This document shows, piece after piece, positions 4,207-32,162 of a DNA stretch of 42,332 bases. The translations under genes were made by a program, and so were the position numbers. The notes under the pieces were generated by a model. It did no database searches, had not been told where the DNA came from, and was given only the letters and a program-made list of their open reading frames with translations. Source of the stretch: a virus; the IMG/VR virus record IMGVR_UViG_3300017666_000003, positions 1-42,332 of that record; one strand, written 5' to 3'. Numbering within the stretch: position 1 is the stretch's first letter; the number at the start of each line of letters is the position of its first letter.

Positions 4207-4274
4207 GTAGCCGAAGTCGCCAGACTTTGGACGCAAACCAACAAACCATCCAATCTCTTGGCGAGATCGGCTAC
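4207..4274. repeat. Palindromic element, full copy
   Basis: CCGAAGTC-GCCA-GACTTTGG, spacer, CCAATCTC-TTGGC-GAGATCGG, enclosed by GTAGCC and GGCTAC. Intergenic. Confidence 0.9.
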
Positions 4275-11996: not shown

Positions 11997-12502
11997 GACA
12001 GCACCGTCATTTTTCTTGTAGTTGTAGCCGAAGTCGCCAGACTTTGGACGCCCTTTCCAATCTCTTCGCGAGATTGGCTACCAGCGGTCCGCGTTACCCC
12101 ACGCGCCGCACAGATCGGGCATGGGCTCACCGATACCCGTCCATGATCCGGACACCTCCACGAGATCGGAACAAACGCCACCTCGGATTCTTCATCCTCT
12201 TCATCCCGATAATGATCATCCCCCGAAGTCCTCAGACGATGGATCGTCGTTTTGCTGAAACCATACTCGCGAGCAAGCGAACGGACCGAGCCCGACGCCT
12301 TATTGATAATCTCCTCGCGAGTCAGCGGAGCCACCGGTTTGATCCGGCGGACGTTTTTCGGGAGGCGTTTATAGAGAGCTTTCACGTTCCGGAAATGGAA
12401 ACGGCGGCAGATTTCCTCTAGCGTCATATCCGAGAGATAAGCATCCAGAATGATCGCTTGAGCCTCAAAGCCAGGTAGGAGCGGTTGGGAGATTTTAGAC
12501 AT
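11993..12502 (-). CDS. Helix-turn-helix/zinc-ribbon protein with translated repeat
   Basis: 169 residues from the ATG at 12502, chosen because GAGGG stands five bases upstream. Two helix-turn-helix-like segments (MTLEEICRRFHFRNVKALYK, 26-45; GSVRSLAREYGFSKTTIHRL, 71-90) precede an acidic linker and a zinc-ribbon-like CPDHG...CPICAARG (117-135). Residues 141-161 are a palindromic element read in reverse orientation (GSQSREEIG...VQSLATSAT). The whole looks like a small DNA-binding regulator. It shares a transcript with the beta-rich gene through an ATGA overlap. Confidence 0.65.
   Translation of the reverse strand: MSKISQPLLPGFEAQAIILDAYLSDMTLEEICRRFHFRNVKALYKRLPKNVRRIKPVAPLTREEIINKASGSVRSLAREYGFSKTTIHRLRTSGDDHYRDEEDEESEVAFVPISWRCPDHGRVSVSPCPICAARGVTRTAGSQSREEIGKGVQSLATSATTTRKMTVLS
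12024..12081 (-). repeat. Palindromic element inside the reverse-strand regulator, in frame
   Basis: Full copy, read on the minus strand as GSQSREEIG...VQSLATSAT near the C-terminus. The frame continues through it. The same reading occurs in the terminase N-terminus (22985-23042). Confidence 0.9.
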
Positions 12503-16044: not shown

Positions 16045-16171
16045 GTAGCCGAAGTCGCCAGACTTTGGACGCACGTCGCAAATCATCCAATCTCTAACGA
16101 GATCGGCTACCAGGACTCGTAGCCTCGTCCACTACCAAACCAAGAACCAAGAACTAAGAACCGGCAAAGCC
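16045..16171. repeat. Repeat cluster: full palindromic element, GTAGCCTCGTCC element, heptamers
   Basis: Full two-hairpin element 16045-16110, then TCGTAGCCTCGTCCACTACC (16118-16137), then AACYAAG heptamers ending in GGCAAAGCCATG at the next start. The whole gap is repeat DNA. Confidence 0.9.
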
Positions 16172-18248: not shown

Positions 18249-19169
18249 ATGACGCGATTTCGAGCGCACGCCATGCGGATCGGCACCACTTGGATCGGCG
18301 GCATTTTGTCCACGTCCGCCGAGAACCAGGCCAACATCCAATCCGACCCAACCGCCGGTTCTTCCACGCCGATGTTCGTCTCGATCAACTCGGTCAAGTC
18401 GATGTTTCGTTTCACGACCTATAACGTCGCCGCCGCACTCGGCCAAATCGGATCCACCGGACTAGCTCTCGGAGGTGGCGTCACATGCCAACTCTGGGAA
18501 ATCCAGATGGATGCCAATGGTCAGATCGCCTCTGGCACCGTGCACCGCCATCTCTCTTTCGCCGCCGGTCGCGTCGTCCCTCGTCGACTCACCGCCAGAG
18601 CCCAAGAGGACGCCGAACTAGAGTTCGAGGCCATGGGCCTTTCGGCCAACGGGACCGACAGCCCGCTCATCATCACGGAAAACGTCGCACTCCCAGCCGC
18701 GTTAGATCTCGCACGACACACATTAGCGGACGCCACCATCGCCAACATTGCCGCCGGTTGCATGACGGAGTTAAGCATCGACTTCGGTATCCAGATCGAA
18801 TCACGAGCATGTAACGGCCAAATCTTCGACACCCGGCTCCATCAGCCCTCGTTAGTCCCCAAGCTAACGGTCACCGTGTTGAATGCCGCGTTGATTGGCA
18901 CCGCCGGCACGCAGATCCCAGACATCGGTCGAGCATGCACTCACGCCAACACGCGATTCCGTTTCCGACGACGTGTCAACAAGGTCGCCGGATTTGTATT
19001 GGATGCCACAGCCGAGCACATGATCATCACGACCGACGGTACGGTCGTACCACAAACGATGTTCGATGGATCGACCAACGAAGAGGGCACCGCGACGCTA
19101 GAGATCACGAGCATGTTCGACGGCACCAACGCCCCGATCGTCATCAATAACGCGAGTGCGATCACGTAA
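18249..19169 (+). CDS. Probable major tail (tube) protein
   Basis: 306 residues. Content is mostly strands with regular hydrophobic alternation, small residues (GSTGLALGGGVTCQLWEIQM) and a C-terminal domain of immunoglobulin-like character (TAEHMIITTDGTVVPQTMFD, then GTATLEITSMFDGTNAPIVI). Tail tube proteins of siphoviruses have this look and this size; there is no sheath gene in the genome. The call rests on composition and place after the tape measure block. Order is unusual, since the tube gene usually precedes the chaperone and tape measure. A head decoration protein is an alternative. Confidence 0.45.
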   Translation: MTRFRAHAMRIGTTWIGGILSTSAENQANIQSDPTAGSSTPMFVSINSVKSMFRFTTYNVAAALGQIGSTGLALGGGVTCQLWEIQMDANGQIASGTVHRHLSFAAGRVVPRRLTARAQEDAELEFEAMGLSANGTDSPLIITENVALPAALDLARHTLADATIANIAAGCMTELSIDFGIQIESRACNGQIFDTRLHQPSLVPKLTVTVLNAALIGTAGTQIPDIGRACTHANTRFRFRRRVNKVAGFVLDATAEHMIITTDGTVVPQTMFDGSTNEEGTATLEITSMFDGTNAPIVINNASAIT

Positions 19170-19170
19170 C

Positions 19171-19419
19171 ATGAAACGAATCACACCACGCGGACGACTC
19201 CTCGTCCGCACCGTAGCCGCCAAATCACTCGAATCCGCAGCGGGCAACCCCGAGGCCGCGTTGATGCTATTCCGGCACGACAAGCGATTCCAAGGCTACT
19301 CCTCCATCTGGATGGACTTGGCCATAGCCCTCGCGATCCAGTTTTTCAAATGGTGGATCGAGCGAAACGTACTCACTCCCAGCGTCACGCAACTAGAGGA
19401 CGAACCGTCGTTTGAATAG
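19171..19419 (+). CDS. Small membrane-associated protein
   Basis: 82 residues from the ATG at 19171, one base after the previous stop. The N-terminus is basic (MKRITPRGRLLVRTVAAKS). Residues about 45-66 (SIWMDLAIALAIQFFKWWIE) are hydrophobic and end in a KWW interface motif, suggesting a membrane-lying or single membrane helix. It could belong to the lysis group that follows. No family recognised. Confidence 0.6.
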   Translation: MKRITPRGRLLVRTVAAKSLESAAGNPEAALMLFRHDKRFQGYSSIWMDLAIALAIQFFKWWIERNVLTPSVTQLEDEPSFE

Positions 19420-19452
19420 TTACGCACCAATAACCAGGAACCATCTCACACC

Positions 19453-20142
19453 ATGACCGTAAAAACTAAAGCACAGTTACAGAAAGAACTTGAGGAACTC
19501 ACAGACTCGGTCAAGTTTGCTCACGAACAACTCACAAAACAGCAAACCGAGTTAGCCGAAAAGGAACAGGCGAGGATAAACCTATCCTACGAGAAAGAAA
19601 GCCTCGAACAGCAACTCGACGACCTCCTCTTTGAACAGAAAAAGACGTCTTTCGAATTGGACAAACTACTAAAGAAACAAGCGGAGGAGCATAGCGAGCG
19701 AGCCGCCGCATCGTTCGAATCCTCCCTATTCGGCAAGCTCGTCGGCATGCTTCCCAACCTATGGTCCCTCATCCCATGGGTTCTCGTCATCGCGGGACTC
19801 GTTTATTGGTATCGATACCAAACGACCACCGTCATCGATCCGCCGACACCACCCGACGTCGTCACGATCGAGAAAGCCGTCGGCGATTATTTCCCAACGC
19901 AACAAAAAGAGTTTGCCAAAGCGTTCTCGGACGCGGCCACCAAAGTCCGCTCCAAAGAGATCAAAACCGATGAGCAACTCGACGCACTCATCAACCCGCA
20001 GCTAAAAGCCGCCAGGGATCTCGCCGGCAAACCGTTCGACGTCTCGTTTGATATGTCGCTCCCTCGCAACGACGACGGAACGTTCGCAGGCAAAGAAGAG
20101 GACGCGGCCAAGTTTCTCGAACAAATCTCTCGGAGTTGGTAG
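19453..20142 (+). CDS. Coiled-coil membrane protein of the candidate lysis cassette
   Basis: 229 residues. Residues 5-80 form a long charged coiled coil (KELEELTDSVKFAHEQLTKQ and onward). A membrane segment lies at about 103-120 (LWSLIPWVLVIAGLVYWYRY). The C-terminal 100 residues are soluble and helical, presumably on the other side. It is translated just before the papain-like peptidase (stop at 20142, ATG at 20146), so the two may work together: a membrane anchor or export aid for the peptidase is the simplest idea. No holin family match is visible. Confidence 0.65.
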   Translation: MTVKTKAQLQKELEELTDSVKFAHEQLTKQQTELAEKEQARINLSYEKESLEQQLDDLLFEQKKTSFELDKLLKKQAEEHSERAAASFESSLFGKLVGMLPNLWSLIPWVLVIAGLVYWYRYQTTTVIDPPTPPDVVTIEKAVGDYFPTQQKEFAKAFSDAATKVRSKEIKTDEQLDALINPQLKAARDLAGKPFDVSFDMSLPRNDDGTFAGKEEDAAKFLEQISRSW

Positions 20143-20145
20143 ACC

Positions 20146-20994
20146 ATGGATTACGACAATTTTACCGGCTATGCGATCGAACTCGAGGACCGCGAGCAGT
20201 TACTCGCCACCCAGGTTGACGCCGTTATGAACATGATGGGGGACGTCCCCGATCGGATGGACCCGCGATCGAGCCCACTCGCAGACCAAGGGTTCATGCA
20301 AGTCGAAAACCAACAATCGGTCGGAGCTTGCCAAGGGTTCTCCCTCGCATGTTGCGCCGAGTTCGCCTATACGTTCGCGACCGGCGAAGTCCTGCAGCTC
20401 GATAACATGTACGCGTACATTGCGAGCCAAGAAAAGGACGGCATCAACGGCGACAATGGCTCGACCCTTAGCGGTGGCACCAAAGCCGCCCGCGATGGGC
20501 TCCGCAAGCAGACCGAAACCTATCGGCCCGTCTATCCCGGCCGAGCGTATCTCACTCGCGAGCGACGCGCCGAGGCCGTCTACAAACTCAAATCCCATAC
20601 GACCATGCAAGACGCCGACCACGTCAAGCAGTTCATAGGCTCGGGCGTTGGGATCGTACAACTAGGGATCGCATGGGGTCGATGGATGGAGCCCAATGCC
20701 GCCGGATGTATTCTCGATTTCAACCCAGGACGAGGAGGCGGGCACGCCATAACATTTGCCGGTTATGTACCCGACTCAGACGTTGGAGTCCCATCGGGAG
20801 ATGGTTGGTGGGCATTGCTCAAAAACAGTTGGTCGAAACGATGGGGCAAAAACGGTTACGCGTATGTTGCACCGCGAGCGATCAACAAAATGATCCGGCA
20901 CGCGTGGACCGTCATGGTCGGACGTTCCGACATGGACAGCCCCAAGCCTCGCAAGATCAAAGTCGACTTCACTAAACGATCGCTCCTCCGGTAG
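20146..20994 (+). CDS. Papain-like (C1A) cysteine peptidase
   Basis: 282 residues. The papain landmarks are all visible: NQQSVGACQGF with oxyanion Gln56 and nucleophile Cys62 (papain NQGSCGSC spacing exactly kept), GGGHAITFAGY with His200, and LLKNSWSKRWGKNGY with Asn227, the KNSWG..WGxxGY block of the family. Start and pro-region are short and no signal peptide is visible. C1A peptidases are rare in phages. Since no lysozyme, amidase or transglycosylase is found elsewhere, it may act as the lysis enzyme against a protein-rich planctomycete envelope, or as a virion or maturation protease. The neighbours are coiled-coil and membrane proteins. Confidence 0.8.
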   Translation: MDYDNFTGYAIELEDREQLLATQVDAVMNMMGDVPDRMDPRSSPLADQGFMQVENQQSVGACQGFSLACCAEFAYTFATGEVLQLDNMYAYIASQEKDGINGDNGSTLSGGTKAARDGLRKQTETYRPVYPGRAYLTRERRAEAVYKLKSHTTMQDADHVKQFIGSGVGIVQLGIAWGRWMEPNAAGCILDFNPGRGGGHAITFAGYVPDSDVGVPSGDGWWALLKNSWSKRWGKNGYAYVAPRAINKMIRHAWTVMVGRSDMDSPKPRKIKVDFTKRSLLR

Positions 20995-21003
20995 GTCGTT
21001 CCC

Positions 21004-21070
21004 GTAGCCGAGGTCGTTAGACCTCGGACGCATCCCCGGCAAACCTCCAATCTCTAACGAGATCGGCTAC
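21004..21070. repeat. Palindromic element, variant full copy
   Basis: Left hairpin CCGAGGTC-GTTA-GACCTCGG differs from the usual CCGAAGTC/GACTTTGG at both sides of the stem, keeping pairing. Right hairpin CCAATCTC-TAAC-GAGATCGG. A compensated variant, showing that the stem is selected or was copied as a structure. Confidence 0.9.
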
Positions 21071-21076
21071 CAAACC

Positions 21077-21382
21077 ATGATCGAAAAACTAAAAAAGACA
21101 TTTGCCCCAATCTTGTTAGCGATCACCGTCATGTTCGGCGGAACCATCAAGGCCGAATACGATCGATTGATCGGCGAGATCCAAACCACCAAGCAACGAG
21201 TCGACGACTTGTTAAAGCAGTCATCCGAAATGGTCAACAAAGTCAATCAGATGATTGACGCCATACAAATCCGCTTACGCGAGGAACAGAGTGATGAACG
21301 ATCGACGAATAATGTTAGCTATAGTCGCCATGATGGGCATCAGTATCGGCTACGTCTTACCGACGAATCCAGCCCCGGCTAA
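21077..21382 (+). CDS. Small N-anchored coiled-coil protein
   Basis: 101 residues. A basic start and hydrophobic segment (FAPILLAITVMFGGTIKA) make an N-terminal membrane anchor or signal, followed by a helix with regular heptads (EIQTTKQRVDDLLKQSSEMV NKVNQMIDAIQIRL-type). This shape resembles an inner-membrane spanin, and the next gene starts 89 bases before this one ends, in another frame, as Rz1 does within Rz. The partner lacks a lipobox, so the spanin idea is weak. Codons after about residue 75 overlap the next gene. Confidence 0.55.
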   Translation: MIEKLKKTFAPILLAITVMFGGTIKAEYDRLIGEIQTTKQRVDDLLKQSSEMVNKVNQMIDAIQIRLREEQSDERSTNNVSYSRHDGHQYRLRLTDESSPG

Positions 21383-21932
21383 AGCCACATACCAATCGGC
21401 CACGACTGAGACCAATCTATCGCAGCTCGACGACTCACTCGGCGAGTTACAAATGCTCGTCGCCAAATTGCAACCCCGGGCCAGCCGTCAACCCTTGTTT
21501 GAAAAGGTGCTCCGTCAATGCGAGTGTAACGATTGCGCATGCGACAGCCCATCAAAGAATCCGCCACCCGTAGCCGAAGTCGCCAAGACTTTGGAAAGCA
21601 CGCCCGCGACAACTCAAACCGCTAACGAGATCGGCTACAAACCGGGCCTCGTAGCCTCGTCCACTACGCCAGCGAATTACACACCGCGATGGACTCATCC
21701 CTCCACGATCGAGGATCACATGGTTAGCACGCATGGAGTCTCGACGACTGGAAAGACGCGGGCCCAGCTCTACGCCGAGCATGATGCGATCCATGATTCC
21801 GAGCGTAGCCAAAGTCGTCAGACCTTGGGTTATTCGTCGGTCGTTAGATCGTCATCGTGTCCCGGTGGCGTTTGTCCCGTCCCACAGAGATCGTATCAAA
21901 CCGTTCGACCATTCCGCTTATTCCGCAGATAA
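21294..21932 (+). CDS. Signal-anchored protein with translated repeats
   Basis: 212 residues from the ATG at 21294 (GAGTG nearby). An N-terminal anchor or signal peptide (MNDRRIMLAIVAMMGISIGY, then VLPTNPAPAKA with an Ala-x-Ala-like cleavage site) suggests export. Residues about 78-85 hold CECNDCAC. Residues 93-126 are two repeat families in a row: VAEVAKTLES...ANEIGY from the palindromic element and LVASSTTP from GTAGCCTCGTCCACTAC. The C-terminus is Ser/Arg-rich with CPGGVCPVP. Function unknown; place suggests lysis or envelope interaction. Confidence 0.6.
   Translation: MNDRRIMLAIVAMMGISIGYVLPTNPAPAKATYQSATTETNLSQLDDSLGELQMLVAKLQPRASRQPLFEKVLRQCECNDCACDSPSKNPPPVAEVAKTLESTPATTQTANEIGYKPGLVASSTTPANYTPRWTHPSTIEDHMVSTHGVSTTGKTRAQLYAEHDAIHDSERSQSRQTLGYSSVVRSSSCPGGVCPVPQRSYQTVRPFRLFRR
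21570..21668 (+). repeat. Palindromic element plus GTAGCCTCGTCC element, both translated
   Basis: The palindromic element (21570-21638) has an intact left hairpin but a right hairpin whose first arm is lost (AACTCAAACC instead of CCAATCTC). Loss of pairing while the frame stays open suggests selection for protein here rather than for structure. TCGTAGCCTCGTCCACTACG (about 21648-21667) follows. Confidence 0.85.
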
Positions 21933-21934
21933 CC

Positions 21935-22213
21935 ATGGTATTCTTCGACGACCTTACAAAAAAGAAGATTCTTGATTGGCTCGCATCGCAGGGGATCTCG
22001 ACGATCCTTTTGATTTGCATCCTCGGGTTCATTGGCTACGGAGTCGTGGTCCTTGTCCCGAGTCACATCACGCAGATACAAAAGGGTTACGAGGTCAACG
22101 CCGAGACGCTCAGCAACTCGTTGAACAAGATCGCCGAGAGTCACGACAAAGACCGCGAGATGTTCATGCGGATACTAACCGACAAGAGCATGCGAGCAAC
22201 CGCAACCCCGTAG
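21935..22213 (+). CDS. Holin-like small membrane protein
   Basis: 92 residues from the ATG at 21935, two bases after the previous stop. Short amphipathic start (FDDLTKKKILDWLASQGI), one strong membrane span at about 20-41 (STILLICILGFIGYGVVVLV), then a charged helix (ETLSNSLNKIAESHDKDREM). One-span proteins of this size include class III-like holins and other phage membrane proteins. Its place at the end of the candidate lysis group, before the terminases, supports a holin, but no family motif fixes this. The stop TAG belongs to a palindromic element. Confidence 0.6.
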   Translation: MVFFDDLTKKKILDWLASQGISTILLICILGFIGYGVVVLVPSHITQIQKGYEVNAETLSNSLNKIAESHDKDREMFMRILTDKSMRATATP

Positions 22214-22302
22214 CCGAAGTCGCCAGACTTTGGACGCATCGCCGATATTCATCCACTCTCTAGGCGAGAGTGGCTACACGGACTCGTAGCCTCGTCCACT
22301 AC
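22210..22302. repeat. Palindromic element with compensated stem, plus GTAGCCTCGTCC element
   Basis: Right hairpin reads CCACTCTC-TAGGC-GAGAGTGG; relative to CCAATCTC/GAGATTGG both arms have changed together, which conserves the stem. Left hairpin is standard. It gives the stop codon at 22213 and is followed by TCGTAGCCTCGTCCACTACC (about 22284-22303) and CAATC heptamers. Confidence 0.9.
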
Positions 22303-22343: not shown

Positions 22344-22955
22344 GTGTCACCAATACCTCCTCCCGATACCACCGAGACGATCGCCGCCCTCGAGCTAAAA
22401 CTCAAACAGCTCCGAGGCACGAAACTCACGCTCAAAGAACAAAAGCAACTCGACAGCTACGAGAAACGGCAATTCGAAATTGACTTTGAGGAGTATTGCC
22501 AACACATCTCGAAAAAGCACTATTGCGAGCTTGCAGGCCGCCAAGTCAAAAGCGTCAACGAATTCGGCGAACGGTACGGCATCGCATGCGACGAGGAAAA
22601 GGTAAACCTCTACTCCGTCATTAAAGACTTTCACACGCTCGCCAGTGAACTCTATAAGAAAGCCCAAACGAATCTCGACCTCGACGAAATCGAACTCGAA
22701 CGGGAAAAGCTCAAGCAAGAGATCGCCAAACTACAACGCCAATCGGCGGTCCTCGACATCGACATCCAAAAGAGAATGGAGACACTCGTCGATCGAGTCG
22801 ACATCGTCGCGGGCCTTGAGTGGTTATCCGCCAAGCTACGCGCGTTAGGCACGCGAATCCATTCGCTCGCCGGCCAAGACGGAGTCGATGCCGTCAATGA
22901 GTTTCTCGACGACCTAAGCACGGAGATGGAACGCGGTGGCCAACTCCATTTCTAA
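22344..22955 (+). CDS. Probable terminase small subunit
   Basis: 203 residues from a GTG at 22344 (an ATG at 22342 is out of frame). Helical throughout. The block SKKHYCELAGRQVKSVNEFG ERYGI-type, followed by a NLYSVIKDFHTLASELYKKA helix, is typical of a family found before GpA-type large terminases in bacteria and phages, where it recognises the packaging site. A coiled coil (residues 105-135) may drive ring assembly. It overlaps the large-subunit start by 20 bases, so the two are made together. Confidence 0.75.
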   Translation: MSPIPPPDTTETIAALELKLKQLRGTKLTLKEQKQLDSYEKRQFEIDFEEYCQHISKKHYCELAGRQVKSVNEFGERYGIACDEEKVNLYSVIKDFHTLASELYKKAQTNLDLDEIELEREKLKQEIAKLQRQSAVLDIDIQKRMETLVDRVDIVAGLEWLSAKLRALGTRIHSLAGQDGVDAVNEFLDDLSTEMERGGQLHF

Positions 22956-25011
22956 TCCCAACCCGAAGCGTAAGCGAGAGACTGGTAGCCAATCTCGCCA
23001 AGAGATTGGAGGCACCGTCCAAAGTCTGGCGACTTCGGCTACTACACACAAACCGACCGCCCTCGAATCCCTCGGCCCCCGTCCGCTACCATTCTCCGCG
23101 TTGCTACTCCCCGCCCTCCGAGCCGGTCGCGGCTCCGCTCCTCGTTCGTTTACCGAGTGGCTCACAAACGAGGTCAACCTCCCCATGGACGGCGGACCAC
23201 ACCAAGGCAAACGCTACCAATTCCGATTCCAACCTATCACCAAACATTGGGCCAATGAAATCGATCGAGGCTATTGGAACGAGTTCATTTACTCCGGCCC
23301 CTCACAATCCGGCAAATCATTCTCCGGCTACGTTTGCCCATTGCTTTACCATGCCCTAGAACTCAATCAGTCCGTCGGATTCGGCGTCCCGATGGAAGAG
23401 ATGGCCGACGACAAATGGAGAGCCGACATCAAGCCCGTGATGTTATCATCGCCCCGGCTCCGCCGTCAGCTTCCCCAATCCGGCTCCGGTTCCGCCGGCG
23501 GCAAGATACGAGACTCGGTCGCGTTCGCCAATGGCTCCGTCGCCAAGATCCTCACGGCCGGAGGATCCGACCAAGCCAAAGCAGGCTACACACTCCGAAC
23601 CATCCTCATCACCGAGGCCGCCCGATTCTCCCACGCGGCCGCGACATCCTCCGAAGCCGATCCGCTCGAGCAGCTCCGAGCCCGTCAACGATCCGTCCCC
23701 GTCGAGGAGCGACGCACGTACATCGATGGGACCAAGACGATCGCCGACGAACTCCCATGGTCCCTCTGGGAAACATCGTCGCGATCACGGATCCTTACAC
23801 AGTGTCCCCATTGCGGCAAATGGAACGCACCCACGCGAGCCAATCTCCTCGGGTGGGAAAACGCACGGACGGAAATCGAAGCCATGGAGCGAGCATCCTG
23901 GCATTGTCCCGATTGCGGAGAGGGGATCGACAACGACGACCGCCTGGCCGCCCTCGCCGATTCTCGCATCCTCCACGGCGATCAGACCATCGATAAACAG
24001 GGAAACGTCACCGGCGATCTACCACGGACGCGGCGATTGTTTTTCGATTACGGGGCCTGGCACAACGCTTTTCTCTCCGCAGCCGATTTGGCCAAAGACT
24101 TATGGGACGCTCATCAGATCCCAGAGGATTCGCCGGCCCGCGAACTGCAGGAAAAGAAGCTTGCCCAATTCGTGTTCGGCGAGATCTACCGGCCTAAGGT
24201 CGAGAAGTACGAGGAGATCCTAGCCGAGACCGACATCTCCGATCGACGGCACAAGCTACCACGCGGCACTACATTCGCCGACACCGCCCACCTATTCGCC
24301 GCCATCGACGTCGGCGAGAAGTTTCTCCACTGGGGCGTCGCAGGGCTCCGCGAGATCGGGACACTCGCCGTCATCGACTACGGAACCGAGACACTCAATC
24401 GACTCGTCGACGTCAAACAAGCGATATTCAGCGGTCTCATTGACATCATGAAGAACTTGCTCGTTGGCTACACCAAAGACAAAGCGTCCGAGCGGATGCC
24501 CATCCGGTCGTGTTACATCGACTCCGGGCACTTGCCAGAGGTCGTATTTGCCGCATGCAAAACGATCAACGAGCATTATGCGATCGATGTATTCCTCCCG
24601 ATCCTCGGTCGGGGCGAGACCCAATTGGAGCGGCGACGCTACAACGCCCCAGGCAAGACGTCGGCCATAGTTCGCAAGATCGATCCCGACGGACGGTGGC
24701 ACGAGTCTTTCGTACGCCGGGCCAAGTGTCGGCAATTGACATTGGACGCCGACGCCTACAAGCGGATGAGCGAGAACGGATTTCGTTTACCGCATGACGC
24801 CCCGGGGGCCATTACTTTGTTTAGTGGGACAGGCAACGTCCACCGGGTATTTTCTAAACATCAGATCAACGAGCAATGGTTACCGGAGCTCGTCGACGGG
24901 ATCACGACTCACAAATGGATCCAAACCGGAGCCAACCACTACAAAGACGTCCTCGCCTATCTCTGCTGCGCCGCCAACCGACATGGGTTTATCCCGACCA
25001 AATCGGAGTAA
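22936..25011 (+). CDS. Terminase large subunit, GpA family
   Basis: 691 residues, GTG start. The ATPase carries a Walker A-like GPSQSGKS (121-128) and a LITEAARF Walker B-like block, followed by an insert with CPHCGKW...CPDCGEG (zinc-knuckle-like) typical of GpA terminases; a C-terminal RNase H-like nuclease follows (AAIDVGEKFLHWGVAG, YIDSGHLPE). The enzyme cuts and translocates phage DNA at the portal and implies cos-type ends. The first 38 residues are almost wholly repeat-derived: PKRKRET from the GCGCAAGCGAGGGA family and SQSRQEIGG...VQSLATSAT from a reversed palindromic element. True conserved sequence begins near residue 70. Confidence 0.92.
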   Translation: MANSISNPNPKRKRETGSQSRQEIGGTVQSLATSATTHKPTALESLGPRPLPFSALLLPALRAGRGSAPRSFTEWLTNEVNLPMDGGPHQGKRYQFRFQPITKHWANEIDRGYWNEFIYSGPSQSGKSFSGYVCPLLYHALELNQSVGFGVPMEEMADDKWRADIKPVMLSSPRLRRQLPQSGSGSAGGKIRDSVAFANGSVAKILTAGGSDQAKAGYTLRTILITEAARFSHAAATSSEADPLEQLRARQRSVPVEERRTYIDGTKTIADELPWSLWETSSRSRILTQCPHCGKWNAPTRANLLGWENARTEIEAMERASWHCPDCGEGIDNDDRLAALADSRILHGDQTIDKQGNVTGDLPRTRRLFFDYGAWHNAFLSAADLAKDLWDAHQIPEDSPARELQEKKLAQFVFGEIYRPKVEKYEEILAETDISDRRHKLPRGTTFADTAHLFAAIDVGEKFLHWGVAGLREIGTLAVIDYGTETLNRLVDVKQAIFSGLIDIMKNLLVGYTKDKASERMPIRSCYIDSGHLPEVVFAACKTINEHYAIDVFLPILGRGETQLERRRYNAPGKTSAIVRKIDPDGRWHESFVRRAKCRQLTLDADAYKRMSENGFRLPHDAPGAITLFSGTGNVHRVFSKHQINEQWLPELVDGITTHKWIQTGANHYKDVLAYLCCAANRHGFIPTKSE
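22985..23042 (+). repeat. Palindromic element inside the terminase gene, in frame
   Basis: Reverse-oriented full copy (CCAATCTC-GCCAA-GAGATTGG, then CCAAAGTC-TGGC-GACTTCGG) translated as GSQSRQEIGG...VQSLATSAT at residues 17-36. The same peptide reading is found in the reverse-strand regulator. Confidence 0.92.
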
Positions 25012-25076: not shown

Positions 25077-25733
25077 CTATGGTTTCTTCATAGGCGGTTT
25101 TCCCATCGCGGCTAATTTCGCGTTTAATGCACTATTAGCTGCAGCGGCTTTTGCCGGTTGGACATAATAGAAATCGAACAGCAATTCCAGTACGTCTAAT
25201 GTCCACTCAGCCTCTTCAGGTTCAACCTTTACAATGACTCCGGTATGTTGACATTTGTTAGGATGAGCAGCATAGTTGCCTATGTTTCGAATCGCATCAA
25301 TCGATTCTGACAAATGCGACGGTAGTGCTTTGCTATCGATAACTTCTTGTATCTGGGGTGCTAGGTCTTTAGCCTTAACTTTTGCCGCATCCAATAAAAC
25401 GTTTTGTAAACAACGACGACTTAACGCGGCGGATGCCTTTGGACTAAATGGCAATACCAAACATGCTTCTCGAAAATCCTCTGCAATATCGCTAGGAACT
25501 TCGGTAGGGCAGTTACGTGGTACAACGTTTTTAGGGTAAATCAATTCGAGATCACGAATGAATTCTGGTGCAATTCCCCACTCCCCGCACTTAAAAATCT
25601 CCACAATAAAATCATTGCAGTTTGGGCAGTGCTGATAAGCAACGCCCCAATGAAAATTATTGGCATTGTCTTCTACCATGTGCGAGTAAGACTTTTGCTC
25701 GTGAAACTGAATACCACAGTACGGGCACTTCAT
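25077..25733 (-). CDS. DUF4145-domain protein with N-terminal zinc ribbon (cargo gene)
   Basis: 218 residues from the ATG at 25733, chosen because GAGGGG lies seven bases upstream. N-terminal CPYCG (3-7) and CPNC (36-39) make a zinc ribbon. The C-terminal domain has the DUF4145 pattern: ASAALSRRCLQNVLLDAAKV, a central loop, SIDAIRNIGNYAAHP (145-158) with the I-R-x-x-G-N-x-A-A-H signature, and a VLELLFDFYYV helix. DUF4145 proteins commonly lie in defence islands or with restriction systems. Reverse orientation inside a head operon and AT-richer DNA mark it as an inserted cargo gene, perhaps for superinfection immunity or lysogen fitness. Confidence 0.8.
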   Translation of the reverse strand: MKCPYCGIQFHEQKSYSHMVEDNANNFHWGVAYQHCPNCNDFIVEIFKCGEWGIAPEFIRDLELIYPKNVVPRNCPTEVPSDIAEDFREACLVLPFSPKASAALSRRCLQNVLLDAAKVKAKDLAPQIQEVIDSKALPSHLSESIDAIRNIGNYAAHPNKCQHTGVIVKVEPEEAEWTLDVLELLFDFYYVQPAKAAAANSALNAKLAAMGKPPMKKP

Positions 25734-25904
25734 AACCAAACCCCTCTCATAGACGAACGTGAAATAACCAATCCGCTACCTATTCTTGCAGAATCTTCAA
25801 TGCATGCCAGTATGCCTACCAGCTAGCTAGTAAATCACCAAACCCGGCCTCGTAGCCTCGTCCACTACCAGGGAACTCGGGACATTTCCCCTCGACAATC
25901 TACG

Positions 25905-27747: not shown

Positions 27748-30195
27748 ATGAGTACCAAGACTCCAGCCCGCCGTAGCCGAAGTCGCCAAGACTTTGGAAA
27801 GCACGCCCGCAAACCCTCCAATCTCTCCGCGAGATCGGCTACCAATAGGCAGATCAAGACCACCCGCATCGCGACCGAGTCTCGCCGCAGCTCCGGGCCC
27901 GCGTCCCTCGACACCGAATCCCGCTCGGTCGTCGCCACGATCGCTACGGACACCCCGGTCCGGATCTACGATTGGCGAGAAGACGAAGAGATCGACGAGG
28001 TATTAGTCCCCGCCGGCTTTATTGCTCCGCGTCGCATGCGACTCCGCGTTGATCACCGCACATGGGGATCCGAGTCCGTCATTGGCCGCGTCGACGATTT
28101 CAAGATTGGAAAAAAGTCCGTCGAAGCCACACTCCGATTCTCCGGCGCCGACGACGTCAACCCAATCTACCAACGCGTAGCCGATGGATCCCTCGACGAG
28201 GTTTCGATCGGAGCCCGTTACGACATGAAAGACACCGTCCGCATCGAGCCGGGCGAATCCAAAGAGGTCGACGGGGTAACGTACCGAGCCGACAAGAAAG
28301 TCGCCAAGCGGATTGTCCGCAAATGGTACGGCCGCGAAACGAGTGTTGTCGATGAGGCAGCCGACCCCAAGGCCACCATCCGCAGCAAAAAGCGGGAAAG
28401 CGGGACAGCCCGTCGCCGTACCGTACATTCCACCAATACAACTCGCACCGGTTCCATTTCCGTTCCCCACTCAGAGGGCCACACAATGCCACGACTGAAG
28501 ACCAAAGCTCGGCGCAAAGCCAGCGCCCCCGCACAAACGAGTCGGGGAAAAACAACTCGTACCACCGAAGCTCCGGAGCCCGTTGTCTCCAAGCGATCCA
28601 AGACCAAGGTAGAACAGTTGCCCTCAACTGTTTCGAAGCGTCAGCGATCCGCAGATCAGCCGCAGGGCGATAGCCCACGGTTACCCGCTCGCAAAAACCG
28701 GACGCTAGCGCGTTCCGGCTCATCACCCGACACCACGCAGGTCATCCGAGCCGAACGCCAACGTATCGCCCGGATCCGCGAGCTAGCTGGAAACGACGTC
28801 CCCGAAAAGGTCGTCAATCGAGCGATCGACAACGGCTACTCGGTGACCAAGGCCAAGGCGTTGTTCTTTTCTCACCTTCAATCGTCATCGGACAAACCTA
28901 TGCGACAAGCAGGCAACGGCGTCACCCGATCCCCAGCGGGCCACGTCCGCGGCGGAGTCACCCTCGAGGCTCTCCAATTCGCCGTCGCAACACGCTACGG
29001 AGCCAAGATCGAGAACAAACACTTTGCTACGCCGCACGCGTCCGAAGTGTTCCGCCGCGAAGGGTTCGAATGGATCAGCCGATTCAACCGCAACATCGGC
29101 GAGTCTGGCAAATCGGACCTTGAGCGAAACTGCGAAATGGGTCAACGCTTCATTGGCGATCACCCTCGCAAGATCTGCGAAAGGATTCTCGCATTGGAAG
29201 GCATCCGCTACAGCTCCATGAGCGAGGAAGAAGTTGTTCACCGGGCTTTCACAAGTCTTTACCTGCCTCGCGTTTTCGGTCCGTTGATTGCCTTGCAAGT
29301 TATCCAGGCTTACGAGGAACTTGAAGACTCGACGACCGCGTTCGTGGACGAAGTTGACAACGCGGACTTCCGGCCCGTCGAAGCGATCGGACTAGACTAC
29401 ACCCAGGGAATGCGACGCCACGTTAAGGGCACGCAAGCCAAGGAAGTTGGTTTTGCCGAGTTCGGCGAGTTCTTCCAAGTGGATCGGTTCACCGGTCGGT
29501 TTGAGATCGATGAGATGGACATCATCAACGATCAGATCGGGGTCGGCCAACAGGCTCCCGACATGCTCGGCCAGATAGCTCGTCAGATCGGGATCGATTT
29601 GATCTATTCCATCTTGCTCAGCAACCCATTGCTCCGCGATGGTACCGCATTGTTCCACTCGTCACGAAACAACATCGTGACCGCCGCTCCGCTAACGATC
29701 GCCGGATTGACCGCCGTCGCGACTCGTATGGCACTCCAACGGGTCACGATGCGAAACGGTAACACTCGTACGCTCAATTCCCAATTGGGAATGCTCGTGA
29801 CATCGATCGCGGATAATCCCGACGCTCGGTCCATCACGCGAGCGACGAACATCCAGAGTGGTGCTACGACAGCCGGTGGCATTGCCGATTCGAACCCACA
29901 CGCAGGACGCTACCAAGTGTTCAGCGATGGACGAATTGACAGCGGGGTCGAGAACCCACGCACCGAGGCGTTCGTTGCCGGTACGACGACCGACTATTTT
30001 GCGTTTGAGCGACCACAAGGCCGACCACGCACGCTAGTCCGAGCACACCTACGAGGCACCGGCCGCGTACCTCGCGTACGATCCAGCTCACTTCAAAATG
30101 GTTCCGGTTCCTACGGAATTGCGTGGGACGTGTCCAAGGACGTCGGCGCAGGCATCAAAACATTCCGCGGCGTCGTCCGAGCAACCAAGACCTAA
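27748..30195 (+). CDS. Capsid maturation protease fused to scaffold and major capsid protein
   Basis: 815 residues. Residues 60-200 are an HK97-type (U35) prohead serine protease with VDHRT (His103) and EVSIG (Ser143). A basic, low-complexity linker or scaffold segment (225-390) follows. The C-terminal part (about 395-815) is a Mu gpT-like/HK97-fold major capsid protein, with KEVGFAEFGEFFQVDRFTGR, MLGQIARQIGIDLIYSILLS and DSGVENPRTEAFVAG. The fusion implies a polyprotein that self-cleaves during prohead assembly. Residues 9-32 are a translated palindromic element, and 285-330 include three other repeats. An internal start is annotated separately. Confidence 0.9.
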   Translation: MSTKTPARRSRSRQDFGKHARKPSNLSARSATNRQIKTTRIATESRRSSGPASLDTESRSVVATIATDTPVRIYDWREDEEIDEVLVPAGFIAPRRMRLRVDHRTWGSESVIGRVDDFKIGKKSVEATLRFSGADDVNPIYQRVADGSLDEVSIGARYDMKDTVRIEPGESKEVDGVTYRADKKVAKRIVRKWYGRETSVVDEAADPKATIRSKKRESGTARRRTVHSTNTTRTGSISVPHSEGHTMPRLKTKARRKASAPAQTSRGKTTRTTEAPEPVVSKRSKTKVEQLPSTVSKRQRSADQPQGDSPRLPARKNRTLARSGSSPDTTQVIRAERQRIARIRELAGNDVPEKVVNRAIDNGYSVTKAKALFFSHLQSSSDKPMRQAGNGVTRSPAGHVRGGVTLEALQFAVATRYGAKIENKHFATPHASEVFRREGFEWISRFNRNIGESGKSDLERNCEMGQRFIGDHPRKICERILALEGIRYSSMSEEEVVHRAFTSLYLPRVFGPLIALQVIQAYEELEDSTTAFVDEVDNADFRPVEAIGLDYTQGMRRHVKGTQAKEVGFAEFGEFFQVDRFTGRFEIDEMDIINDQIGVGQQAPDMLGQIARQIGIDLIYSILLSNPLLRDGTALFHSSRNNIVTAAPLTIAGLTAVATRMALQRVTMRNGNTRTLNSQLGMLVTSIADNPDARSITRATNIQSGATTAGGIADSNPHAGRYQVFSDGRIDSGVENPRTEAFVAGTTTDYFAFERPQGRPRTLVRAHLRGTGRVPRVRSSSLQNGSGSYGIAWDVSKDVGAGIKTFRGVVRATKT
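27773..27842 (+). repeat. Palindromic element inside the capsid protease gene, in frame
   Basis: Full copy (CCGAAGTC-GCCAA-GACTTTGG and CCAATCTC-TCCGC-GAGATCGG) read as RSRSRQDFG...NLSARSAT, a different forward frame from that in the replication gene. It lies in the first 33 residues, ahead of the protease fold. Confidence 0.92.
28486..30195 (+). CDS. Internal in-frame start: scaffold/major capsid product
   Basis: An ATG at 28486, in the frame of the 815-residue gene, follows GAGGG (28474-28478) by seven bases. It would make a 569-residue protein without the protease, beginning MPRLKTKARR and containing scaffold-like linker plus major capsid domain. This resembles lambda C/Nu3, where an internal start in the protease gene makes the scaffold. 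Most genes here lack such a good ribosome-binding site, which makes it notable. Confidence 0.6.
   Translation: MPRLKTKARRKASAPAQTSRGKTTRTTEAPEPVVSKRSKTKVEQLPSTVSKRQRSADQPQGDSPRLPARKNRTLARSGSSPDTTQVIRAERQRIARIRELAGNDVPEKVVNRAIDNGYSVTKAKALFFSHLQSSSDKPMRQAGNGVTRSPAGHVRGGVTLEALQFAVATRYGAKIENKHFATPHASEVFRREGFEWISRFNRNIGESGKSDLERNCEMGQRFIGDHPRKICERILALEGIRYSSMSEEEVVHRAFTSLYLPRVFGPLIALQVIQAYEELEDSTTAFVDEVDNADFRPVEAIGLDYTQGMRRHVKGTQAKEVGFAEFGEFFQVDRFTGRFEIDEMDIINDQIGVGQQAPDMLGQIARQIGIDLIYSILLSNPLLRDGTALFHSSRNNIVTAAPLTIAGLTAVATRMALQRVTMRNGNTRTLNSQLGMLVTSIADNPDARSITRATNIQSGATTAGGIADSNPHAGRYQVFSDGRIDSGVENPRTEAFVAGTTTDYFAFERPQGRPRTLVRAHLRGTGRVPRVRSSSLQNGSGSYGIAWDVSKDVGAGIKTFRGVVRATKT
28608..28728 (+). 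repeat. Three hairpin repeats translated in the capsid linker
   Basis: AACAGTTG-CCCT-CAACTGTT (about 28612-28631), then CAGCCGCAGGGCGATAGCCC (about 28659-28678), then CCGGACGCTAGCGCGTTCCG (about 28699-28718). Each family also occurs between genes (32697, 16713, 880). They are read as VEQLPSTVSKRQ, DQPQGDSPRLP and NRTLARSGS in the linker of the capsid polyprotein. Confidence 0.85.
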
Positions 30196-32038: not shown

Positions 32039-32162
32039 TACAAGCCCGAAGCGCAAGCGAGGGACAGTAGCCGAAGTCGCCAGACTTTGGACGCATCACC
32101 GCAAATCATCCAATCTCTACGCGAGATCGGCTACCAACCAAGCACCAAGAACCGGCGAAGCC
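32039..32162. repeat. Repeat-only intergenic stretch
   Basis: AGCCCGAAGCGCAAGCGAGG (about 32043-32062), full palindromic element (32067-32134) and AACYAAG heptamers with GGCGAAGCCATG. No gene. Confidence 0.88.

Follow-up and report, generated by a model that had tools for sequence, protein, structure and literature searches.

The cassette upstream of the terminase gene

The DNA analysed here (the window, the whole 42,332-base stretch of IMG/VR record IMGVR_UViG_3300017666_000003) is a temperate phage record in which an integrase, a portal and a GpA-type terminase are present. A 114-base direct repeat at both termini suggests that the window is complete and circularly closed. This report concerns a gene for a papain-like cysteine protease at 20146–20994 and the genes for membrane and exported proteins around it (Table 1), which together form a cassette (19156–22213) that a first-pass annotation had put forward as a candidate lysis cassette.

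Analyses of the protease sequence indicated that the gene product is an intact C1A papain-like protease, and proteolysis is predicted. Its sole Pfam match was to Peptidase_C1 (PF00112; E 4.2e-10; score 40.5 bits, cut-off 20.7; 205 of 220 positions), with no match to the C71 pseudomurein endopeptidase profile, and in PHROGs it matched phrog_16701, “peptidase” (E 6.7e-9). The residues Q56, C62, H200 and N227 were unchanged across the window protein and 13 aligned homologues (54–78% identity), and the same four were invariant in a 10-member protease set extending down to 25% identity. The first-pass annotation had named Cys62, His200 and Asn227 in exactly this open reading frame (ORF), and these assignments were correct; the oxyanion Gln is Q56. 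An AlphaFold model from the 14-sequence alignment (predicted local distance difference test score, pLDDT, 79; predicted template modelling score, pTM, 0.83) matched cathepsins and plant papains in Foldseek (probability 1.00, E about 1e-10, TMt up to 0.78), and a broader protease profile led to C1A enzymes of known structure, with 3ois at the top (E 4.5e-16). Pairwise ratios of nonsynonymous to synonymous substitution (dN/dS) among the relatives were 0.03–0.10, and the protease is therefore under strong purifying selection.

Conservation and movement of the cassette

In the close relatives from IMG/VR that carry the protease, the order gene B, gene C, protease was kept; the first-pass annotation had proposed to look for the gene at the same place in related phages. 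Downstream of the protease most of these relatives retain gene E, whose exported or membrane product sometimes has a CxxC motif, and gene F, which encodes a coiled-coil membrane protein. Comparison of whole genomes showed that six adjacent cassette genes are 26–78% identical between the window and the relative G001; elsewhere there were two weak early-gene matches only, and no structural genes common to the two were detectable. Against three further relatives (G002–G004) the structural genes reached at most about 30% identity and the protease 55–66%. From these comparisons we conclude that the cassette moves as a module.

In isolated phages, no homologue of the window or P0001 turned up at nucleotide or protein level, and the cassette was in none of them. 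A plasmid search yielded C1 peptidases at 24–27% identity only, in Rhizobium and Priestia. The scan for relatives with the window terminase found none, and the kin search for the window gave no result. A distant papain-like protease (22% identity) was seen at L016:9875-10627, in a large phage contig of 82.8 kb without the cassette, where it adjoins recombinase-like and queuosine-type genes.

Of the partners, the exported one accompanies the protease most closely. Gene C was related by profile–profile comparison (hhalign probability 91, E 1e-6) to a secreted family, secC, and in a divergent papain-like family of 26 loci, several of them near-duplicates, secC immediately preceded the protease in every one of the 23 for which upstream sequence was available. 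This family kept Q, C, H and N in 24 of 24 aligned members, and its papain kinship rests on these aligned motifs and on C-terminal PF00112 matches (E 1e-4 to 1e-3); its AlphaFold model was of low confidence (pLDDT 34) and hhalign against the papain profile was weak (probability 2, E 0.02). One divergent cassette protease (L147:1601-3811, IMGVR_UViG_3300037508_001042) is interrupted by an intein that starts at the position of the catalytic cysteine and has homing-endonuclease features (PF14890, E 6e-13). Inteins often sit in essential active sites.

Other proteases in the same slot

Relatives were also picked by terminase regardless of protease, with four seed terminases from papain-bearing phages. 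The slot was readable in ten further contigs and all ten had a protease there (Table 1). In the subtilisin cassette, gene F (E 2e-21) and the exported partner (E 5e-5) are both retained, and a protease of another clan is therefore found among homologous partners. The occurrence in the slot of a subtilisin and, by position, of matrixin and trypsin-like proteases suggests that selection has acted on protein cutting and not on one fold.

Trypsin-like proteases were seen near the cassette at L087:439-1116, where the N-terminus has a clear signal-like segment, and at L123:1513-2184, L069:2699-4000 and L121:6759-7877. A matrixin metalloprotease at L120:7751-8512 (minus strand) is preceded by a weak match to a peptidoglycan-binding domain that falls short of the cut-off (PF01471, E 0.0027), making it a possible wall-targeted protease.

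Search for a murein-cutting enzyme and comparison of position

Pfam and PHROGs scans of the 52 coding sequences of the window (for PHROGs, the best 25 of 32 families) identified no murein hydrolase, which bears out the earlier remark that none was visible. The larger ORFs of G001–G004 likewise gave no murein hydrolase among the Pfam matches listed (partly the best 25 of 41 families), nor did those of G012–G014 and G016 among the best 25 of 41 Pfam families. Six-frame searches for Amidase_2, Phage_lysozyme, Peptidase_M15_4, SLT and CHAP were negative in all 25 related records, while control genomes gave matches.

By terminase, the nearest isolated phages were chiefly Pseudomonas phages, with one Klebsiella phage among them. 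In JBD30 the interval from the late activator to the terminase contains an endolysin and an Rz-like spanin, and the Klebsiella phage has a GH19 lysozyme-like protein at the corresponding position. The window cassette precedes the terminase at 22936, a place comparable in the relatives and in JBD30. The position supports a role in lysis because the terminase-related isolated phages keep an endolysin and spanin or a GH19 protein there.

Table 1. Features of the window and proteases found in the cassette slot of terminase-selected relatives
Feature	Location	Strand	Basis or remark
Gene B, 87 amino acids (aa), hydrophobic C-terminal segment IWMDLAIALAIQFFKWW	19156..19419	+	Hidden Markov model (HMM), alignment; first cassette gene, conserved
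Gene C, 229 aa, coiled coil at the N-terminus, single membrane segment (~105-122)	19453..20142	+	Alignment of 13 homologues
Papain-like (C1A) cysteine protease, 282 aa, without signal peptide	20146..20994	+	Pfam, PHROG, AlphaFold, alignments
Protease active-site codons	Q56 20311-20313; C62 20329-20331; H200 20743-20745; N227 20824-20826	+	
Gene E1, 101 aa, short N-terminal hydrophobic segment and coiled coil	21077..21382	+	phrog_739; homologue L001_10848-11066
Gene E2, signal-like N-terminal segment, CPGGVCP motif, basic C-terminus	21294..21932	+	51% to L001_11063-11548
Gene F-like, 92 aa, one strong membrane segment ILLICILGFIGYGVVVL and C-terminal coil	about 21935..22213	+	Hydropathy 2.86
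Terminase large subunit	22936..25011	+	PF05876 E 1.8e-20, PF20454 E 4.8e-8; landmark downstream of cassette
Fusion of head-maturation protease with major capsid protein, one 815-aa ORF	27748..30195	+	phrog_4523, phrog_133, Pfam capsid
Papain in slot	G011, G015, G022		
Divergent papain-like family in slot	G019, G020, G021		
Subtilisin in slot, D/H/S triad intact	G012		PF00082 E 1.2e-42
Matrixin in slot	G013		Positional
Trypsin-like and matrixin-like in slot	G014, G016		Positional

Partner genes and other features of the window

The genes flanking the protease had been described as encoding coiled-coil and one-span membrane proteins, and genes C, E1 and F-like do show such segments, with a signal-like segment in E2. 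Across 50 window proteins, the cassette accounts for four of the five most hydrophobic segments (mean over 17 residues of at least 1.85). Gene B has a GTG start with an ATG 15 nucleotides downstream, was matched by an HMM from the relatives (E about 5e-30) and is of moderate hydropathy (1.36). In gene C (hydropathy 1.87) a Pro-rich spacer is followed by a conserved helical C-terminal domain. Gene E1 is 44% identical to its homologue and weakly matched the Rz-like spanin family (E 2e-4), a match made indecisive by the coiled coil. Gene E2, whose ATG start is inferred within an ORF that opens at 21255, overlaps E1 in a different frame and has no lipobox in its sequence. Its domain WTHPSTIEDHM...EHDAIHD is also in L122_5009-5626 (HMM E 4e-24, the L122 sequence being inside the model); the small uncharacterised domain of these two exported cassette proteins reads W-T-[HY]-P-x-T-I-x-x-H...H-D-x-[IL]-H, and the L122 protein had no match in Pfam. 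The F-like gene is 72% identical to L001_11355-11831, was not matched by the gene F HMM of the other relatives, and by its layout alone resembles a holin or spanin. Gene A of the relatives weakly matched a holin family (phrog_9987, E 1.9e-4); the HMM search found no homologue of it in the window, where the cassette membrane proteins are one-span only. The CxxC exported partner of some relatives was weakly thioredoxin-like (best Protein Data Bank thioredoxin, E 0.17).

Interspersed repeats like GTAGCCGAAGTCGCCAGACTTTGGACG and CCAATCTCTAACGAGATCGGCTAC occur in at least 12 copies in the window, largely in intergenic DNA (for example at 4207-4233, 12024-12050, 16045-16071, 22210-22236 and 32067-32093), and a plasmid search with them gave no match. 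A DUF4145-like ORF lies on the minus strand between the terminase and portal genes (25077-25739); its third-position GC is low (0.40) and it is possibly a late insertion.

Role of the protease

On balance, we lean towards a late egress (lysis) cassette with the protease as its effector, operating in the manner of a holin-endolysin-spanin system but cutting protein in place of murein. The basis for this reading is the intact, signal-less C1A protease, its membrane and exported partners, its position before the terminase, and the joint movement of these genes between otherwise unrelated phages. The proposal of the first-pass annotation has thus gained from synteny, modular movement, a lysis-type position, a holin-family neighbour in the relatives, the lack of any match to the main endolysin families, and the sharing of one slot by unrelated proteases, with lysis and proteolysis themselves predicted from sequence.

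As the protease has no signal peptide it should, like an endolysin, need an opening of the membrane to reach the envelope. We envisage that it would accumulate in the cytoplasm until a holin-like partner (gene A in the relatives, E1 or F in the window) opened the inner membrane. The exported gene C product, with its membrane or signal anchor, Pro-rich spacer and helical domain, might dock or restrain the protease at the envelope, where the enzyme would then cleave a structural envelope protein. Partners with CxxC (thioredoxin-like) or CPGGVCP motifs may keep Cys62 reduced or open a disulphide-linked wall protein, and the coiled-coil membrane proteins E1 and F would complete the disruption of the outer envelope.

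A packaged or tail-attached protease, which would cut a surface protein at adsorption or process virion proteins, was the alternative offered by the first-pass annotation. The gene does lie between tail-like genes and the terminase in the window, and in the relatives tail-fibre genes directly follow the protease. However, the window phage encodes its own virion-maturation protease, separate from the papain-like gene: two PHROGs matches in the window proteins, to “major head and protease protein” (phrog_4523, E 2.5e-61) and to “head maturation protease” (phrog_133, E 5e-35), were assigned to 27748-30195 from the ORF sequence and from tblastn matches with Clp-protease-like proteins of phages. 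A prohead protease role for 20146–20994 was rejected because this head protease, fused to the capsid protein, is encoded elsewhere. In addition, the cassette shuttles between phages without detectable common structural genes, and membrane or exported partners are unusual among virion genes. These points weaken the virion alternative, which we now regard as unlikely while still keeping it in view.

An ordinary endolysin of an unusual family, cutting the peptide bridges of peptidoglycan as CHAP or NlpC/P60 enzymes do, would suit the lysis-like gene position, and papain-like folds include several peptidoglycan hydrolases (PMC10318531). The window enzyme, however, belongs to C1A, as its Q/C/H/N and NSW motifs and cathepsin-like structure show, and the same cassette can hold a protein-acting subtilisin or, by position, a matrixin or trypsin-like protease; we therefore find a muralytic activity improbable. 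We give a similarly low probability to a moron or host-takeover module, in which an exported protease system would serve surface remodelling, superinfection exclusion or nutrient release. That would accord with the exported partners, the several proteases of some relatives and the lack of the cassette in searched isolated phages, but its presence at a fixed late position in every terminase-selected relative with a covered slot is more like that of a core gene, and no other lysis enzyme was found.

Several observations weigh against a proteolytic lysis cassette. That an endolysin is absent was judged from sequence profiles, which a new fold could escape, and some of the Pfam results behind this comprise the best 25 families. 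The presence of two or three proteases in some genomes (papain, trypsin-like, astacin-like) fits poorly with a one-for-one replacement of the endolysin, and large Bacillus phages, too, carry subtilisin genes, whose roles there are different or unknown. The holin and spanin assignments in the window, based on a coiled coil and on hydropathy, are weak. For G013, G014 and G016 the cassette partners were unrecognised by HMM, and “same slot” is therefore positional only. Moreover, the planctomycete host supposed by the first-pass annotation is unsupported: no prophage copy was detected in the genome contigs scanned, and consequently no host can be assigned. A planctomycete link of the window phage is a guess. 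In Rhodopirellula a disulphide-bonded protein sacculus was described in 2009 (PMC2754498), but later work on cultured planctomycetes found lysozyme-sensitive peptidoglycan (PMC4432640), and so a protein-only envelope cannot be assumed.

Bacterial lysis by phages is understood as murein cutting. Proteolysis may be how the window phage and related uncultured phages burst their hosts; if so, some uncultured bacteria owe envelope strength to protein, alongside or in place of murein, and the proteases represent a new class of lytic enzymes. A general form of proteolytic lysis in tailed phages, with a mobile cassette, interchangeable papain-like, subtilisin, matrixin and trypsin-like proteases, a load-bearing host protein layer and redox-active exported partners, is a more tentative proposal, which we judge a little less probable than its opposite. 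The cassette provides a concrete gene set for testing protease-based lysis, an idea long-standing but unproven, and a marker for phages without a recognisable endolysin.

Comparison with known systems

The literature searched yielded no published account of a cassette of this kind, although absence there is no proof, and neither papain nor planctomycetes are mentioned in a survey from 2025 on lytic proteins of viruses (PMC12596118). Within peptidase family C1A (papain, cathepsins, the bacterial 3ois, phrog_16701) the window protease has the common fold and Gln-Cys-His-Asn site, but it lacks a long inhibitory propeptide, sits in a phage cassette and has conserved motifs of its own, an N-terminal GYxIExEDR and a C-terminal GRSDM. 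The PeiW and PeiP pseudomurein endoisopeptidases (MEROPS C71) of Methanothermobacter viruses are likewise viral cysteine peptidases, and serve as endolysins on a non-murein wall (PMC4456609, PMC12596118); they differ in family, in archaeal hosts and in their pseudomurein substrate, and no holins were identified in those viruses. Lysis of a protein envelope by a holin and a protease has been hypothesised for S-layer archaea, with the enzyme unknown (PMC4456609). The idea is the same, whereas the genes of the window belong to tailed phages with bacterial-phage-like terminases and form a conserved cassette.

The holin-endolysin-spanin cassettes (lambda S-R-Rz, JBD30 endolysin-Rz) occupy the same place before the terminase, also move as a module, and likewise combine a signal-less effector with small membrane and coiled-coil membrane proteins. 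Their defining trait, a murein-degrading effector, was not found in the window cassette, whose effector is a protease without a murein-cutting domain and which has an additional conserved exported partner (gene C/secC). We would thus regard the cassette as a putative variant of the lysis cassette by working mode only, and do not class it as a member of the holin-endolysin-spanin group.
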